64,000 nt of DNA from a virus. The notes beneath the pieces are model-generated. The model was not told the DNA's origin. It was given only the letters and a program-made list of their open reading frames with translations, and did not search any database. How positions within the stretch are numbered: the stretch's first letter is position 1; every line of letters starts with the position of its first letter. Shown one piece after another: positions 2,282 to 23,435 of this stretch. The stretch covers positions 124,001-188,000 of the IMG/VR virus record IMGVR_UViG_3300017963_000188. One strand, 5' to 3'. Both the position numbers and the translations under genes were made by a program.

Positions 2282-2345
2282 CGTGCCAAGTTTCGGGTTG
2301 GCTGCCGAGCCTTTGCTTGTCTTTCGTTGAGTCATTGGCCTGCTG

Positions 2346-2426
2346 AAAACAATTCCGTGCTCTTCCCCTGAGCTACCGTCCCATAAGTTTGGAGGGACGG
2401 GTCGGATTTGAACCGACGACCCGAAA
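2346..2426 (-). tRNA. circularly permuted tRNA (probable anticodon GTT, Asn)
   Basis: On the minus strand the 3' half comes first: anticodon-stem strand TTTCG (2426-2422), variable GGTC, T-arm GTCGG-TTCAAAT-CCGAC, acceptor CCGTCCC, U73 and CCA ending at 2390. After only 7 bases (AACTTAT) the 5' half follows: acceptor GGGACGG (2382-2376), canonical D-arm GCTC/GAGC, A26, anticodon-stem strand CGGAA and TTGTT. Both halves pair perfectly as one cloverleaf: acceptor 7 bp, and anticodon stem CGGAA with TTTCG. The anticodon GTT is inferred, since the loop is split. Confidence 0.7.
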
Positions 2427-2628
2427 CATTTATGACCTTTGACCAACATACTTGATTCAAGCTCCAACTTTAAGACTGTGGGCAATAGACTGATTCTGAC
2501 CACTGGGTATCACCTACTCCCATCTGCACCACCGAATAATTTTGGTGGTTTCACAGACTGACTTTCGTGGTCCTCCCAGTGGTTGACACTGACAACAGAC
2601 AACAAGACTAGCCCACTTTCAAACCTTT
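2427..2628 (-). ncRNA. structured RNA upstream of the permuted tRNA (putative intron 3' half)
   Basis: About 200 bases without a credible ORF. A 9-bp stem (ACCACTGGG at 2583-2575 with CCCAGTGGT at 2507-2499) encloses a further ACCACC/GGTGGT hairpin. The segment ends ...AAATG just before the tRNA 3' half, consistent with a group I intron ending in G. With the ~125 bases after the 5' half it would make an intron of about 330 nt in permuted order. The group I assignment is a hypothesis: clear P7 elements were not found by eye. Confidence 0.4.
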
Positions 2629-6430: not shown

Positions 6431-6494
6431 TGGTGGAGCTGGGGGGATTCGAACCCCCGACCCTCTGACTGTCTCCCAATTGAGCTACAGCCCC
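6431..6494 (-). pseudogene. tRNA-Ala pseudogene lacking the anticodon 5' arm
   Basis: 64 bases nearly identical to tRNA-Ala(GGC) at 6712-6787, but missing 12 bases that carry the 5' strand of the anticodon stem and part of the loop. Acceptor (GGGGCTG/CAGCTCC), D-arm start, T-arm and CCA are intact; one base differs in the T-loop. It still ends in CCA and could be an RNase P substrate, but cannot form an anticodon loop. Confidence 0.85.
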
Positions 6495-7443: not shown

Positions 7444-7926
7444 CTATCGACTCATCATATATTCATCTACATTCATTATATTGGGATCATCTGTAAACCA
7501 TGCTCGTACTCTATCTATACGAGGTTTGAAAGTTTCAACATGGTCTTTGTATCTGTTGTAAAATTTGTAGTGTTCAGATTGAGGGTGGATAGTTCCAGCT
7601 CTTTGACCATCTTCATCATAGTCACTGTGATTTCCCACATATTTTCTGAACTCTCCATGCCAGTATTCTTTCTCTTGTAATTCTTGTGGAGTGAGCATGA
7701 AAAGACAATAGTATCGATTTTGTTGGCTGCATTGATGATCTTCACGAGCTTCAAAATGTTCTTCAAAAACGTTATGGAACCAATATTTCTCCCCGTTCCA
7801 TATACAAAGACCAGACAATGGACCATCCCAATAATCGGTATGCCACAACATATGAACATTGTCACGAGATGCTTGAGGGAAGTTATGTGTCACAACCATC
7901 AAGTCTCTTTTAGTTTTGAATCTCAT
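7444..7926 (-). CDS. hypothetical protein
   Basis: 160 aa from ATG 7926 (an in-frame TTG lies at 7941). It is rich in aromatic residues and His: LWHTDYWDGPLSGLCIWNG, then EYWHGEFRKYVGNHSDYDEDG. These look like a family-conserved core, but no catalytic motif is assigned. It overlaps the end of the upstream gene by 17 bases, so the two are coupled. Confidence 0.65.
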   Translation of the reverse strand: MRFKTKRDLMVVTHNFPQASRDNVHMLWHTDYWDGPLSGLCIWNGEKYWFHNVFEEHFEAREDHQCSQQNRYYCLFMLTPQELQEKEYWHGEFRKYVGNHSDYDEDGQRAGTIHPQSEHYKFYNRYKDHVETFKPRIDRVRAWFTDDPNIMNVDEYMMSR

Positions 7927-8576: not shown

Positions 8577-9334
8577 ATAACCTCCTTAATCGAATCTTTC
8601 CATTCGATTATAGGATCATCCTTGTATTTCTGATACAGATCCTTAATAGCCTCATCGTTCTGAGACTGAATCAATTCTTCACCTTGTTGTTTTGTTTCCT
8701 CATCAGCTTTATTGTGGCTCAATCGTTGACGAACCTTATTCATCTTACCAAGCCAAATCTTATCTGTCACATATGGTCTGGTGAGATGGATTACATCGTG
8801 AATACCATGCATATCAAGGATTGGTTCAGCAGAGATACTTGTAGCATAACCTAAACTAAAAGCCAATCTCAAGCATTCCCATCTCTCTTTGAAAGTTGGT
8901 GCTCCCGGTTCCCAAAACTCTAGAACCTTCCCATCAACAGTACCAATAGTGAATCGGAACAGAATCTTGTCTTGATGATCCTTGAATTCATCACAGATTC
9001 TTTGAATGCAATCTAGATGTGGCTTCGAGACTATCAAGACATGATTACCAGCATCTAGAACTTTCCTTAGGATTGTAGTAAACCCTTCAATGTTGTGGGG
9101 TGTTATATCATGACTGGTTGGGAACATGATAGGTTGTTTCTTCTCTCCTCGAAGGCCATAGTTCTTACCAATAGCTTCTTGTTGGATCTCTTCATTCTCC
9201 CAATCATCTGGACTTTTCCGATCCATACGGGAAGACATGGCTTTGGCATAGCAATATTTGCAGTTATGACTACAACCAATCACAAAGTTCAGAGTAGAAC
9301 CTGACCATTCCCAAACACCTGTTTTGCGTTTCAT
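8567..9334 (-). CDS. radical SAM-like phage protein (Gp37/Gp68, DUF5131 type)
   Basis: 255 aa. Residues ~20-28 hold GCSHNCKYCYAKAM, a CxxxCxxC iron-sulfur motif. The flow that follows (KKQPIMFPTSHDITP, VLIVSKPHLDCIQRI, AEPILDMHGI) matches the DUF5131/phage Gp37-Gp68 family, related to spore-photoproduct-lyase-like radical SAM enzymes. The substrate is unknown. The gene ends MGL-stop in the 5' end of tRNA-Ala(TGC), and its start overlaps the upstream HNH gene by 4 bases. Confidence 0.8.
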   Translation of the reverse strand: MKRKTGVWEWSGSTLNFVIGCSHNCKYCYAKAMSSRMDRKSPDDWENEEIQQEAIGKNYGLRGEKKQPIMFPTSHDITPHNIEGFTTILRKVLDAGNHVLIVSKPHLDCIQRICDEFKDHQDKILFRFTIGTVDGKVLEFWEPGAPTFKERWECLRLAFSLGYATSISAEPILDMHGIHDVIHLTRPYVTDKIWLGKMNKVRQRLSHNKADEETKQQGEELIQSQNDEAIKDLYQKYKDDPIIEWKDSIKEVMGL

Positions 9335-12181: not shown

Positions 12182-12257
12182 TGGTAGCCGGTGTCGGGCT
12201 CGAACCGACGACATCTTGCGTGTAAAGCAAGTGCTCTCCCAACTGAGCTAACCGGCT
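12182..12257 (-). tRNA. tRNA-Val(TAC)
   Basis: Acceptor AGCCGGT/ACCGGCT, anticodon arm CTTGC-TTTACAC-GCAAG, T-arm GTCGG-TTCGAGC-CCGAC, A73, CCA. Confidence 0.95.
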
Positions 12258-12684
12258 ATATTTTATTCAACACTAATGACAATGCTGCTCTACAAATACA
12301 TAATTCCATTGTATCTGCAATCATCACTGTTTCAAACTCATCTCCTCCACAATCTCCAGTGCAAACTATCCCGAAGATGTATTCACCAGTCTCTATATTA
12401 TATCTTATGTAAGGTCCTTTCCAGCAATCTTTGTGGTTTTTTATTTTTTCAAAAACCTGCCATGCCTGACCTTGATTGGTAGATGGTTTCCAATCATCTA
12501 CAGAGATCCAGAAATTGGTAGAGACATCAATATAGTATTTCCCTACAAAATTGAGGTCAACTTTATGGAGCCATTCTTCTAGTTTTTTCTGTCTTGGACC
12601 TTCATCACCCCAATACTTTATCTCCAGGAGTTCCCATCCCATTACATTTAGAGCAACGGATACGTCATGGCAGGGTTTAGGCAT
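12256..12684 (-). CDS. phage ABA-sandwich-like protein
   Basis: 142 aa from ATG 12684; AGGGGACGTTTTTG precedes it and it overlaps the upstream stop. It opens KPCHDVSVALNVMGWELLE and closes ADTMELCICRAALSLVL, the typical frame of the ABA sandwich family. CIVCTGDCGGDEF-like Cys spacing in the middle may be structural. Paralog of 1830-2210. The TAG stop shares two bases with tRNA-Val(TAC). Confidence 0.75.
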   Translation of the reverse strand: MPKPCHDVSVALNVMGWELLEIKYWGDEGPRQKKLEEWLHKVDLNFVGKYYIDVSTNFWISVDDWKPSTNQGQAWQVFEKIKNHKDCWKGPYIRYNIETGEYIFGIVCTGDCGGDEFETVMIADTMELCICRAALSLVLNKI

Positions 12685-13669
12685 CAAAAACGTCCCCTGT
12701 AAACTCAAGACCATTTTCAAAAGTGACTCGAACCGGCCTTACTCCAATAAAATCTCGAACCGTCTGTTTACCATTGTATCTTACGTTTCGAGTCTCTTTA
12801 CGTTCCCTTTCTGTTTGTTCCCACATCTTGAACATTTCTTTTACTTCTGTCATGTCCTTGTAAATACAAAGACCATATCCATTGGAGCATATGGCTGTAC
12901 CACCTTCTTTTTCTACCAGAGCATATCCTTCCATTGGTCCCAGATCCAAAGTTTTGATTTTCTCCATTATCATTTTCAGATCAGGAAGGACTCTATATAG
13001 ATCTAGAAGATAATTAGCATGATCTTGATTAGTTATTTCTCGTTCTTTACGTATATATTTATCACCTTCAAATGCATGTGTGATAGCTAACCTATGGAAG
13101 GTATGGCTCATTCTACCAATAGCATTATATATTTCTGGTCTATCATCCCTATCTGGACACGGAACTTCTGACTCATAATAGTCTTTGGTCAAAAACCAAA
13201 TCAAAGCTATCTTATCCCAGACATTCAAATTTTCCCATTTACTACGACACTCTTCAACCTTCTGATCCAGAGAACCTTTCTTCTTCAAGGCTATGTAGTA
13301 AGAATAATTATCCCCATGAGACTTAATCAACTCGAATATTTCTGCCAGATCCCCAATATCAATCCACCCAGAACCTATCCTAAAACAATACTCAATCTTG
13401 TCCTGGACCGCTGACATGGTTCCACAACAACCACCCATGTAATTCTCACCTTCAGACATAGCTATGCTACACCACTCTTTAGGAGTGAGTGGTAACTCTA
13501 CAGAATTGAACAATTGAAGAAAATACTCAGCACGATCCTCACCTTTACCTCGATATTCTGTTTTGAGTCTATATTTGATCCCAAAAGAATCAAGGTAATC
13601 CATTCTTTTCTTGAAAGCTACTTTCCATTTCTTTGGTGGGGTAGGAGAAGTTATCTGATGTATAGGCAT
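12677..13669 (-). CDS. hypothetical protein
   Basis: 330 aa with a strong start (AAGGAGGCAAGCT before ATG 13669). It appears soluble and mixed alpha/beta, with no motif I recognise. Cys residues cluster at MGGCCGTMS. The C-terminal YNGKQTVRDFIGVRPVRVTF looks like a separate small beta unit. Overlaps the downstream gene by 8 bases. Confidence 0.7.
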   Translation of the reverse strand: MPIHQITSPTPPKKWKVAFKKRMDYLDSFGIKYRLKTEYRGKGEDRAEYFLQLFNSVELPLTPKEWCSIAMSEGENYMGGCCGTMSAVQDKIEYCFRIGSGWIDIGDLAEIFELIKSHGDNYSYYIALKKKGSLDQKVEECRSKWENLNVWDKIALIWFLTKDYYESEVPCPDRDDRPEIYNAIGRMSHTFHRLAITHAFEGDKYIRKEREITNQDHANYLLDLYRVLPDLKMIMEKIKTLDLGPMEGYALVEKEGGTAICSNGYGLCIYKDMTEVKEMFKMWEQTERERKETRNVRYNGKQTVRDFIGVRPVRVTFENGLEFTGDVFDA

Positions 13670-13711
13670 AGCTTGCCTCCTTTTAAAGGACTATACTACA
13701 CCATAGAATTT

Positions 13712-16917: not shown

Positions 16918-18462
16918 ATGAACATTATAGCATTATTGTCTTTTTTATCGTTTGGTATCCACACAGCAATGGCAGTATATGCTGTTGTGGCTAACTCTAG
17001 ATCTACCATCAATAGAATCTTTGTGCATATAGCTATATGTTTTGCGATCTGGTCATTCTGTAACACATTCTTTTTCATATCCCCCACTAAAGAAGCAGCC
17101 ATGATTTGGGTAAGGTATGCTGCTGTGGGATGGACACTTGTACCAGGATTCTTTTTACATTTTTTATTACTACGTTCCAAAAATAAACACATAGAAAGTC
17201 CTATTGTGATCTTGATCCTTTACACACCGGGGATTATTTTTCTGATTAAATCATTCTTAGACCCTCAAAGTTTTGTATCTGATATTTATCTCACCTCATA
17301 TGGATGGTGGCTAGAAAAACACAACAGTTATTGGATGTGGGGTTTTTCTTTTCATTATACAGTATATACCTTTTTTGGGTTTTACCATATGGCTAAATGG
17401 GGGTGGTATTCAAAATCACACCGAGAAAAAATAGAAGCTCAACTCATAGTAACCATAGGAATCATAGTCACAATCTCAGTCACAATAACAAATAGGATGG
17501 CTCCAGAGTTGGGGATTGAGATACCTTCTGTAGCTCATATCATTGTGACTTTGTGGGTTTTCACTATTCTATATACTATGGTGAAATACAATTTTATGTC
17601 TCTTACTCCTACAGCTATGTCAGAACGAATCATAGAAAGTATGGGAGAAGGGCTGTTGTTAGTCAATTCCAATGGTAGTATTGGAACCGTAAATATCGAA
17701 GCAGCTTCAATTCTCGAAGTGTCCACAGAATATATTAAAAGACAAGACATTTCTGATATTTTTGGATGTGGGTTTAGGAATGAACTCACATCTATGATGG
17801 AATGGGAAACGATACGAAATAAAGAATTATACTACAAAAGAAATGAGAAAATATTGAACGTCAATGTAATGACCATAGAGACTATCCAATCAAAAAGGTT
17901 AGGATACATTTTGACTATGCGTGATATCACCTTGCAGAAAAAGACAGAAGAGAAACTAAAATTCATGGCTTCACATGATCCGTTAACAAAGCTACCAAAC
18001 AGGATAATACTTGAAGACCGTGTGGAACAAGAAATGGCTAGAACAAATAGAAATGAAATGCCTTTCTCTGTTTTCCAAATAGATATAGATCGATTCAAGG
18101 AAATCAATGATACTTTTGGACATCACATTGGAGACTATGTGTTATGTCAGGTTGCAGACAGAATCAAACGATCTATCAGGGAATGTGACACAGTATCTCG
18201 TATAGGAGGAGATGAATTTGTAGTTGTTCTCAGCTCTATAAATGAACCTACTGATGCAGAAATAGTAGCAAAGAGAATCTTGAAACTATTCAAGAAACCT
18301 ATCCAATGTAATGGTCATACCATAGCAGTGAGTATCAGCATTGGTATTTCTATCTATCCAGAACATAGTTCTTCAAGAGATGGTATGTTGAGAAAAGCAG
18401 ATAAAGCCTTGTATGAAGCCAAAAAATCTAGAGGGACATATCATGTCTTTTCTAGAAATTAA
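16918..18462 (+). CDS. membrane-bound PAS-GGDEF diguanylate cyclase
   Basis: 514 aa. Residues 1-225 form about seven hydrophobic helices like the 7TM histidine-kinase N-terminal region. Residues ~230-335 look like a PAS domain (LLLVNSNGSIGTVN, then LTMRDITLQKK linker). A GGDEF domain follows: HDPLTKLPNR near 350 and GGDEF at about 430. RECD five residues before GGDEF matches the RxxD product-inhibition site, so both catalysis and feedback look intact. It would make c-di-GMP at the host membrane. It is the only plus-strand gene between the window start and 27.3 kb. Confidence 0.92.
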   Translation: MNIIALLSFLSFGIHTAMAVYAVVANSRSTINRIFVHIAICFAIWSFCNTFFFISPTKEAAMIWVRYAAVGWTLVPGFFLHFLLLRSKNKHIESPIVILILYTPGIIFLIKSFLDPQSFVSDIYLTSYGWWLEKHNSYWMWGFSFHYTVYTFFGFYHMAKWGWYSKSHREKIEAQLIVTIGIIVTISVTITNRMAPELGIEIPSVAHIIVTLWVFTILYTMVKYNFMSLTPTAMSERIIESMGEGLLLVNSNGSIGTVNIEAASILEVSTEYIKRQDISDIFGCGFRNELTSMMEWETIRNKELYYKRNEKILNVNVMTIETIQSKRLGYILTMRDITLQKKTEEKLKFMASHDPLTKLPNRIILEDRVEQEMARTNRNEMPFSVFQIDIDRFKEINDTFGHHIGDYVLCQVADRIKRSIRECDTVSRIGGDEFVVVLSSINEPTDAEIVAKRILKLFKKPIQCNGHTIAVSISIGISIYPEHSSSRDGMLRKADKALYEAKKSRGTYHVFSRN

Positions 18463-18463
18463 A

Positions 18464-18672
18464 TGGTGTGCCTGGCAGGACTCGAACCTGCATCACTGAA
18501 GCAAAGACCACGGTTTGGGAGAACGGCCTTCCCTACTGAGCCCTCTCTGGCAGGTTCGGTGAGCAATCACAACCCTTGTGGTCACCCCACACCCTTTCGG
18601 TAGCAGGTTCATCAGTGTCTTTTACGACCCGGCTCCGTTTTTCCGGTGCTCTTCCGTTTGAGCGACAGGCAC
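18464..18672 (-). ncRNA. tRNA-like RNA with a large internal insert
   Basis: The ends form a tRNA: acceptor GTGCCTG (18672-18666) with CAGGCAC (18474-18468), A73, CCA, T-arm GCAGG-TTCGAGT-CCTGC, and D-arm GCTC/GAGC with GG in the loop. Between D-arm and T-arm lie ~140 bases instead of ~27. The insert contains hairpins such as CACAA-GGG-TTGTG inside GGTGA/TCACC. No normal anticodon arm could be assigned. It may be an intron-bearing tRNA or a tmRNA-like chimera. Confidence 0.55.
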
Positions 18673-19116
18673 ATGACTATTTACGTATTCAACCAGCTTC
18701 TTGAAAGTTTCAAGAGAAATCAAAACTGGACCTATCAAATCGCTATCCATATGATACTCTTGATAAGAGATCCAAATAGCATTGTGTTCTGCATGGTCTT
18801 TGAAAAAAACAGGACCAACTCTGAACTCAAGAAGCTGACCTTCAGAATCTACTATACTGAAAACTGTCCCATCATCTTTAACCAGCTCTCGAAACTTCCC
18901 TTCATCCCAGGTCTGGTACACTTCAGGTTTTGTATCTCGAAGAGTTTGTTTTTGAGTTCCCTTCACAACTGCCAATCCTATTTGAGTGATCTCACCATCT
19001 TTTATCAAACCTTCCTCAAGGAGTTCCCATCTGATCTGTGAGGGGAGTTCAGAAACTTGTTCTTTACCATCTGCTATACGGTGAAGTTTTGCTAGGCCCA
19101 GTTTGGTTATTCTCAT
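18622..19116 (-). CDS. hypothetical protein
   Basis: 164 aa with a perfect ribosome site (AAGGAGGTTACT before ATG 19116). The N-terminal 50 residues (ITKLGLAKLHRIADG, IRWELLEEGLIKDGEITQIG) look like a winged-helix fold. The body is beta-rich. The last ~17 codons (from about VPVAQTEEH) are encoded by the 5' half of the tRNA-like RNA, so the original stop was lost or the RNA is a later arrival. Confidence 0.65.
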   Translation of the reverse strand: MRITKLGLAKLHRIADGKEQVSELPSQIRWELLEEGLIKDGEITQIGLAVVKGTQKQTLRDTKPEVYQTWDEGKFRELVKDDGTVFSIVDSEGQLLEFRVGPVFFKDHAEHNAIWISYQEYHMDSDLIGPVLISLETFKKLVEYVNSHVPVAQTEEHRKNGAGS

Positions 19117-19233: not shown

Positions 19234-19457
19234 AAATCAAAACACAATTGGGTAGGACCATCAAACTTACCGAGATCCAATGGTTGCTGTTGAGGGATTT
19301 TGATATCAGATGTACCTGTAGTGGTGATCACATACTGTTGTTGTGGTACACAAGTACATGAATGACGTGACGGGGGTGGTGTTACTCCCCACCAGGGAGA
19401 CTCAGCATAAATAGGGGCACCACATTTAGGGCAATGTCCAACTGTTGCATAACTCAT
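19224..19457 (-). CDS. small zinc-ribbon protein
   Basis: 77 aa, AAAGGAGTTGAA before ATG 19457. GHCPKCGAPIY and SCTCVP give two Cys pairs. The middle is Gln/Thr-rich. The end DFGL-stop is encoded by the 5' end of tRNA-Arg(CCT). Confidence 0.68.
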   Translation of the reverse strand: MSYATVGHCPKCGAPIYAESPWWGVTPPPSRHSCTCVPQQQYVITTTGTSDIKIPQQQPLDLGKFDGPTQLCFDFGL

Positions 19458-23057: not shown

Positions 23058-23435
23058 GATATCTCCATAAAGTAGTGGTAGGGCAACTCGTCACAGCCTG
23101 TCGGTATAGCCCTTCAGCTCTTTAGAAGGAGGGGATTTCCATCAGAGCTTACTTCGACAGGTTCCCACAAATGAGTCTTTTGAGGGTTTTCTGCATCTCA
23201 GGGTCCCACTGTATGCATACGGTTATTAAGCAGTCAATCCTGCACCCACAACCGCTATTTTCTTAAATGGGCCAGGCATGAGATATCTCATAACGGACCT
23301 AAAAGCCCTCCCAACCCAAATCGAAGGTTTCGACCTTGACACGATGGTTCAGTATGTTTTTTTACTCCCTCCATGGAGCTGCTGTTCTAGACCAGCCACA
23401 TACCTAGTCAAGGTGTACTTTCCTTCAATAACTTA
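23058..23435 (-). ncRNA. LSU rRNA-like RNA, upstream segment
   Basis: About 380 bases with no ORF, between tRNA-Glu and the 60-aa gene. GACTGCTTAATAAC (23235-23222) resembles the start of 23S domain IV, and AAGCTCTGATGGAAATCCCC (23150-23131) resembles E. coli AAGCTCTTGATCGAAGCCCC of helix 68. A CCTGTCG/CGACAGG stem closes the latter part. AGGCTGTGACGAGTTGCCCTAC near 23090 repeats, in altered form, a block of the main segment at 22750-22770. Confidence 0.45.

Follow-up and report, generated by a model that had tools for sequence, protein, structure and literature searches.

A tRNA-like RNA with a Structured Variable-Region Domain in Large tRNA-Rich Phages

Introduction

Large phages encode dozens of transfer RNAs (tRNAs), the purpose of which, either codon supply or protection from tRNA-cutting defenses, is debated. 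In jumbo phages, tRNAs are accompanied by RNA ligases and, in rare instances, by TROVE proteins (PMC7824862). In Salmonella, the rsr-yrlBA-rtcBA operon is an RNA-repair locus and the RNA YrlA has been proposed as a competitive inhibitor of an anticodon nuclease, according to the passages on this locus (PMC7790460), and the passages on Anabaena describe a trn array, rtcB, and slipin that are co-regulated under translational stress (TrcR; PMC10272220). Neither set of passages mentions an RNA such as the one described here, which comprises 209 nucleotides (nt) and is encoded on the minus strand at positions 18464-18672 of a 64,000-nucleotide stretch of phage DNA (hereafter, the window), i.e., positions 124001-188000 of the 358 kb virus record IMGVR_UViG_3300017963_000188. 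The RNA almost certainly belongs to a previously unrecognized family of structured non-coding RNAs, the main carriers of which are large phages rich in tRNAs. It has a full tRNA body and a variable-region domain of 80-190 nt with a near-invariant core, and it is clearly not an ordinary decoding tRNA. From the neighboring genes, it is tentatively proposed that the RNA mimics tRNA without decoding and acts in tRNA protection or repair, and the explanation taken whole, structure together with function, is given an even chance of being correct. No description of the RNA was found in the open-access literature.

Comparison with Known RNA Classes

Canonical tRNA (RF00005) shares with the element the 7-bp acceptor stem, U8, a D-arm with GG, the T-arm TTCRANY, a discriminator, a CCA end that is encoded or not, and the location in tRNA arrays. 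By contrast, the canonical anticodon loop has 7 nt with U33 and the variable region has 4 to ~24 nt, whereas the element has an 8-nt non-decoding loop without U33 and a structured insert of ~80-190 nt; the tRNA model did not match the window copy at expectation values (E) up to 5. Transfer-messenger RNA (tmRNA, RF00023) likewise joins a tRNA-like end to a long structured insert with pseudoknot-like pairing, although the element has a D-stem and an anticodon-like arm and is without a recognized tag reading frame; a 28-residue tag was proposed by ARAGORN for the window copy only at a relaxed threshold. The tmRNA covariance model did not match the window copy at E up to 5 and gave only sub-threshold fragments in other copies, and a separate tmRNA is encoded in the same phage at 20254-20611. 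YrlA (RF02553) is a tRNA-mimicking non-coding RNA as well, sometimes neighbors the element, and occurs with Ro60 and RNA-repair genes; however, its architecture is that of a permuted tRNA bearing a long end stem, no sequence similarity to the core of the element was found, and RF02553 matched none of the elements at E up to 5, though true YrlA nearby was detected. Finally, group I introns also place a structured insert within a tRNA gene, but the insertion site differs and the non-decoding loop of the element is conserved, and the group I intron models matched neither the window copy nor the other copies tested.

No model of Rfam 15 matched the window copy at E up to 5, and the elements of eight related loci matched no family at E up to 5-10. 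An earlier note on this DNA had proposed a new tRNA-like hybrid RNA, a proposal that is borne out by a conserved and covarying family without an Rfam model. A hammerhead reading of CUGAUGA...GAAA was rejected as incompatible with stem II.

Structure of the Element

The features of the window copy are as follows, in window coordinates and from the 5′ end of the RNA.

18464..18672, minus strand: whole tRNA-like RNA, 209 nt including CCA; ARAGORN with introns, ~28 homologues
18666..18672, minus strand: acceptor stem 5′ strand, GUGCCUG; fully paired (7/7) in this copy and throughout the 28 members; covaries
18648..18663, minus strand: D-arm, GCUC-AAACGGAA-GAGC; covaries
18629..18646, minus strand: anticodon-like hairpin A, CCGG...CCGG, directly after nt 26; covaries
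18634..18641, minus strand: conserved 8-nt loop AAAACGGA without U33; five A/C columns invariant in alignment A6
18617..18628, minus strand: predicted hairpin B, GUC-GUAAAA-GAC, extended forms only; member inspection, pairing probability ~0.6-0.7 in the tRNA-constrained fold
18612..18616, minus strand: helix C 5′ strand, ACUGA; permutation test 0/5000, 18 extended members
18578..18583, minus strand: helix F 5′ strand, GACCAC; permutation test 0/2000, 28 members
18556..18574, minus strand: core motif 1, GGUUGUGAUUGCUCACCGA in the window and GGUUGCGGAUGCACYGA in the family; near-invariant
18518..18533, minus strand: core motif 2, GGGAAGGCCGUUCUCC in the window and GGGAAGCGCGUUUCC in the family; near-invariant
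18522..18526, minus strand: CCGUU, predicted to pair with AACGG in the anticodon-like loop (helix K); own pairing above shuffles, 3/5000
18506..18511, minus strand: helix F 3′ strand, GUGGUC; tested with its 5′ strand (0/2000, 28 members)
18495..18499, minus strand: helix C 3′ strand, UCAGU, 3 nt ahead of the T-arm; tested with its 5′ strand (0/5000, 18 extended members)
18475..18491, minus strand: T-arm, GCAGG-UUCGAGU-CCUGC; 5/5 pairs in all 28 members
18468..18474, minus strand: acceptor stem 3′ strand, CAGGCAC; pairing and covariation as for the 5′ strand
18464..18467, minus strand: discriminator A and encoded CCA, read from the sequence

The coordinates given in the earlier note were correct, with the RNA on the minus strand, as was its description of a canonical acceptor stem, D-arm, and T-arm with CCA; the acceptor stem has 7/7 pairs, and U8, a 4-bp D-stem, GG in the D-loop, and discriminator A are also present. 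Its statement that the anticodon arm is replaced by the insert was wrong, since positions 27-44 form a hairpin exactly at the place of the anticodon arm and the insert follows in the variable region, between this arm and the T-arm. CCA is encoded in 6 of the 28 members and loosely tracks the tRNAs of each phage. ARAGORN without introns misses the window copy; with introns allowed, the copy is the sole such call in 64 kb, and 100 dinucleotide shuffles of the window yielded one intron-tRNA call and none with a CCA end. Thermodynamics by itself would not flag the RNA (z = -0.84 for the window copy), and such z-scores were uninformative for both the window copy and a compact member.

Evidence for the tRNA body comes from covariation in alignment A6 of 20 sequences, with the acceptor stem, D-arm, hairpin A, and T-arm as the fixed structure. 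Paired cells amount to 97.0%, compared with 70.1% in shuffled alignments, and sliding the partners by one column lowers pairing to 45-51%. Changes on both sides occur in 18 of the 20 pairs (108 cells vs 30 in shuffles), and the covariation score is 0.80 vs 0.26 shuffled. Acceptor starts were partly picked by pairing, so that the acceptor helix taken singly is biased, and the D-arm was partly selected in this way. Hairpin A, comprising four pairs, was not selected by pairing; 90% of its cells are paired and all four pairs show changes on both sides. An early alignment (A4) was limited to the core because MAFFT misplaced the 5′ halves of distant members.

The inserted domain contains helix F, the two core motifs, and, in the extended forms, helix C; helices F and C likewise covary. 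Helix F is GACCAC/GTGGTC in the window and AAACCT/AGGTTT, GAACC/GGTTC, CCTCT/AGAGG, or CTGAG/CTCAG elsewhere. The core motifs GGUUGCGGAUGCACYGA and GGGAAGCGCGUUU are almost without variation across the family, and the core hairpin GGU..ACC shows none, hence lies beyond the reach of covariation. Compact actinophage forms of ~150 nt are without hairpin B and helix C and therefore show the minimal element; in the unconstrained fold of a compact member, the acceptor stem, D-arm, and an anticodon-like arm of 5 bp and 8 nt all form. A further hairpin, absent from the window copy, is common to L143 (~19380-19410, minus strand), L153 (~8675-8705, plus strand), and L160; its stem covaries, its conserved loop is AGGGCGTCGCTCGG (AGGGCGAGTCTCGG in L160), and it is possibly a docking element.

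The loop of hairpin A, AAAACGRA, is constant across members whose acceptor stems are unrelated, and U33 is absent in every member. Pairing of this loop, AAAACGGA in the window, with the second motif of the inserted core (helix K) is supported by a shuffling test, in which the pairing observed was reached by 3 of 5000 shuffles after helix K anchors had been corrected in four members; before correction, the value was 164/2000 and not significant. Helix K survives changes in L178 (AACTG/CGGTT) and in L184b (AAAAGCG/CGCTTTT), the latter being the most telling case, where a G inserted in the loop is matched by a C inserted in the core. A loop paired with the core would therefore be occupied, and usual codon reading would be impossible.

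Discovery and Distribution of the Family

Approximately 28 distinct copies were found, and the stems were analyzed in 28 copies. When only the window copy served as the query, blastn searches of phages and plasmids returned tRNA T-arms only or nothing. Related huge phages were reached through the terminase gene (alignment A1); when ARAGORN was applied to their tRNA-rich stretches with introns allowed, a 241-nt element emerged in G013, in which the D-arm is again followed by the loop AAAAACGRAG. A loop-based pattern led to a third copy in IMGVR_UViG_3300005690_000022, the conserved core of which led to two more phage types. Core model R1 recovers the window copy with a score of 56 bits, compared with 75-102 bits for the other model members, and it found the copies in G014 and G035; the core motif GGTTGCGGATGCACYGA gave over a dozen further copies, and the final model R2 added one more huge phage, G006. 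Searches by blastn with later copies reached the Streptomyces phages Comrade, SparkleGoddess, Karp, Gilson, MeganTheeKilla, Kela, JustBecause, Alone3, LuckySocke, and others, in which the DNA of the element is not annotated as an RNA and is located close to, or in between, annotated tRNAs. Homologues were thus reached by independent motifs, by a covariance model, and by blastn.

Most copies occur in huge phages, in addition to the isolated Streptomyces phages, one contig of a Deltaproteobacteria metagenome-assembled genome, where the copy sits after seven tRNAs, and the chromosome of the betaproteobacterium GR16-43; the element was not found in 398 other genomes from the order of GR16-43. The element is carried by only 4 of 50 terminase-related records and therefore comes and goes. 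The class is conserved beyond actinophages, in phages that infect other hosts as well, and its occurrence in isolated Streptomyces phages makes it immediately testable.

Two diverged copies occur in a single phage (L184:2160-2396 and 7551-7790, minus strand). No match was obtained in the near-identical records G001 and G002, the coverage of which probably does not include the region. The pattern GCACCGGAAAAACGGAGCCGG gave 0 matches in viral contigs and the pattern GGTCGCTAGGNAAGCGCGTTTCC gave 0 in bacterial genomes. Chance matches were discarded in L150 and L151 (coding DNA), in L176, L180, L181, L185, and L188 (without a tRNA body), and in L161, L163-L166, and G214. A different kind of enlarged tRNA was observed in the 536 kb phage L129, where two tRNAs with a TTA anticodon, which read the stop codon UAA (13241-13384 and 13563-13703, minus strand), and a tRNA-Gln (12186-12328, minus strand) were each called with an "intron" of 50-72 nt. 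A tRNA-Thr(GGT) in the 402 kb phage L137 (9768-9915, plus strand) was called with a 63-nt extra stretch.

Genomic Neighbors and Possible Function

Copies of the element sit inside tRNA arrays; the record of the window holds 51 tRNA-model matches, and the stretches read include tRNAs for all 20 amino acids. In GR16-43, RtcB, the element, three tRNAs, slipin, and an AAA ATPase form one strand-wise row, and this locus thus resembles the described RtcB/Ro/slipin/tRNA loci, combining RtcB, slipin, and tRNAs with the element. In Comrade and MeganTheeKilla, a Band_7 gene lies upstream of the element, and RNA ligase and polynucleotide kinase genes lie downstream. YrlA, the element, and a Ro60 protein follow one another on a single strand in G058, and YrlA lies within ~1.5 kb of the element in L173 and L186. 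TROVE genes were found in 11 of 24 element-bearing records, including that of the window, compared with 2 of 27 records without the element (Fisher p = 0.003).

These neighbors (tRNA arrays, Ro/YrlA, RtcB, and RNA ligase/polynucleotide kinase) are suggestive of an RNA that mimics tRNA in the context of tRNA damage and repair. The transcript would be released from the tRNA array by RNase P together with the enzymes that process tRNA 3′ ends, and the excised RNA would obtain a CCA end. As part of a phage kit for tRNA protection and RNA repair, the non-decoding mimic may then engage a tRNA-binding protein, such as an anticodon nuclease, a Ro-type protein, or a repair enzyme, and may serve as a decoy, sensor, or scaffold. 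This role is considered possible, with somewhat more standing against it than for it. A more specific version, in which a widespread phage RNA class mimics a whole tRNA, locks its own loop in internal codon-like pairing, and uses its core to control an RNA-repair/Ro system against tRNA-cleaving defenses, is more doubtful. A tRNA look-alike that would be unable to decode, located among tRNA arrays and RNA-repair genes, provides a direct handle on the purpose of phage tRNAs and illustrates how a further RNA domain can be mounted on a tRNA scaffold.

Several points weigh against the mimic. The element is known here from sequence alone, and metagenomic contigs are the source of most copies. Informative changes in helix K are few because both partners are nearly invariant, and the acceptor stem and discriminator are too variable to indicate one synthetase. 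In the window copy, the T-arm has alternative pairing partners in two stretches of the insert (GAACCTGC), and in the unconstrained fold this arrangement is ~1 kcal/mol better than the cloverleaf. Furthermore, phage lineage confounds the association with TROVE genes, which occur in only 1/5 of the element-carrying terminase relatives.

The main rival, itself improbable, is a second Ro-associated, Y-RNA-like class, in which the core binds Ro60/TROVE and, as has been proposed for YrlA, substrates are recruited or blocked by the tRNA body. The gene order in G058, the proximity of YrlA in L173 and L186, the TROVE counts, and the presence in the phage of the window of its own TROVE gene and YrlA-like RNAs are in line with such a class, but more than half of the element-bearing records, several of them large, show no TROVE gene, the YrlA model is unmatched, the architecture differs, and no known Ro-binding stem was identified. 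In the phage of the window, the TROVE/Ro protein lies outside the window beside three YrlA-like RNAs (G000:C1:328245-328523 and 329476-329944), and a further YrlA-like match at 126325-126446 of the record (window 2325-2446, minus strand) lies within the tRNA array of the window; all of these matches are under the Rfam cut-off.

An atypical translating tRNA, with a giant variable arm and an 8-nt anticodon loop for a four-base or rare codon, is quite unlikely. When the insert is removed, ARAGORN reads an "aacg" loop (window copy, L183, L173, L177, and L189) or Arg(acg) (L195), yet U33 is absent, the loop is predicted to pair with the core and does not change between members with unrelated acceptor stems, and the phage of the window is already equipped with tRNAs for all 20 amino acids. 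A ribozyme on a tRNA body, self-cleaving or acting in trans, is very unlikely; the ~30 near-invariant core positions, with helices and a tertiary pairing, are as in catalytic RNAs, but a protein-binding site would look alike and the known Rfam ribozyme families are unmatched.

An intron of an undescribed class in a tRNA gene, self-splicing or enzymatically spliced, has a slightly lower probability still. It would account for a conserved, structured insert within a tRNA body and for the proximity of some copies to RtcB or other RNA ligase genes. However, Rfam intron models are unmatched, the insert falls short of the usual size of a group I intron, and the loop itself belongs to the conserved element. 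In an insert-deletion test of eight members, the commonest resulting tRNA kept the "aacg" loop in five; Arg(acg) in L195 is read off the same hairpin, and G053 and L182 gave few calls of any kind. The test is supportive rather than decisive, as counts were variable in shuffled-insert controls. A known intron class is unlikely because the best deletions mostly leave this same loop, and the unusual intron suggested in the earlier note found no support, given the conserved loop AAAACGRA, the missing U33, and the AACG loop kept by the commonest deletion product in five of eight members. A decayed tRNA gene or chance arrangement, to which the relatively diverged window core (56 bits vs 75-102) might point, is the least probable reading and is largely refuted by covariation, since pairing is retained in every tRNA stem and in helices F, C, and K, and 0/100 shuffles reproduced the arrangement.

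Other Features of the Window

A 7TM-PAS-GGDEF diguanylate cyclase gene (16918-18462, plus strand; Pfam), an unusual phage cargo, is convergent with the tRNA-like RNA, its stop codon lying one base from the CCA end. On the other side, an open reading frame without a Pfam match (18622-19116, minus strand) enters the tRNA-like RNA and stops inside it; relatives of its protein were searched for and none were found. A weak tRNA match (37 bits, 61 nt) at 6434-6494 on the minus strand, without an ARAGORN call, is perhaps a degenerate tRNA, and the Rfam DUF3800-VI RNA motif lies at 23269-23317 on the minus strand with a score above the gathering score.
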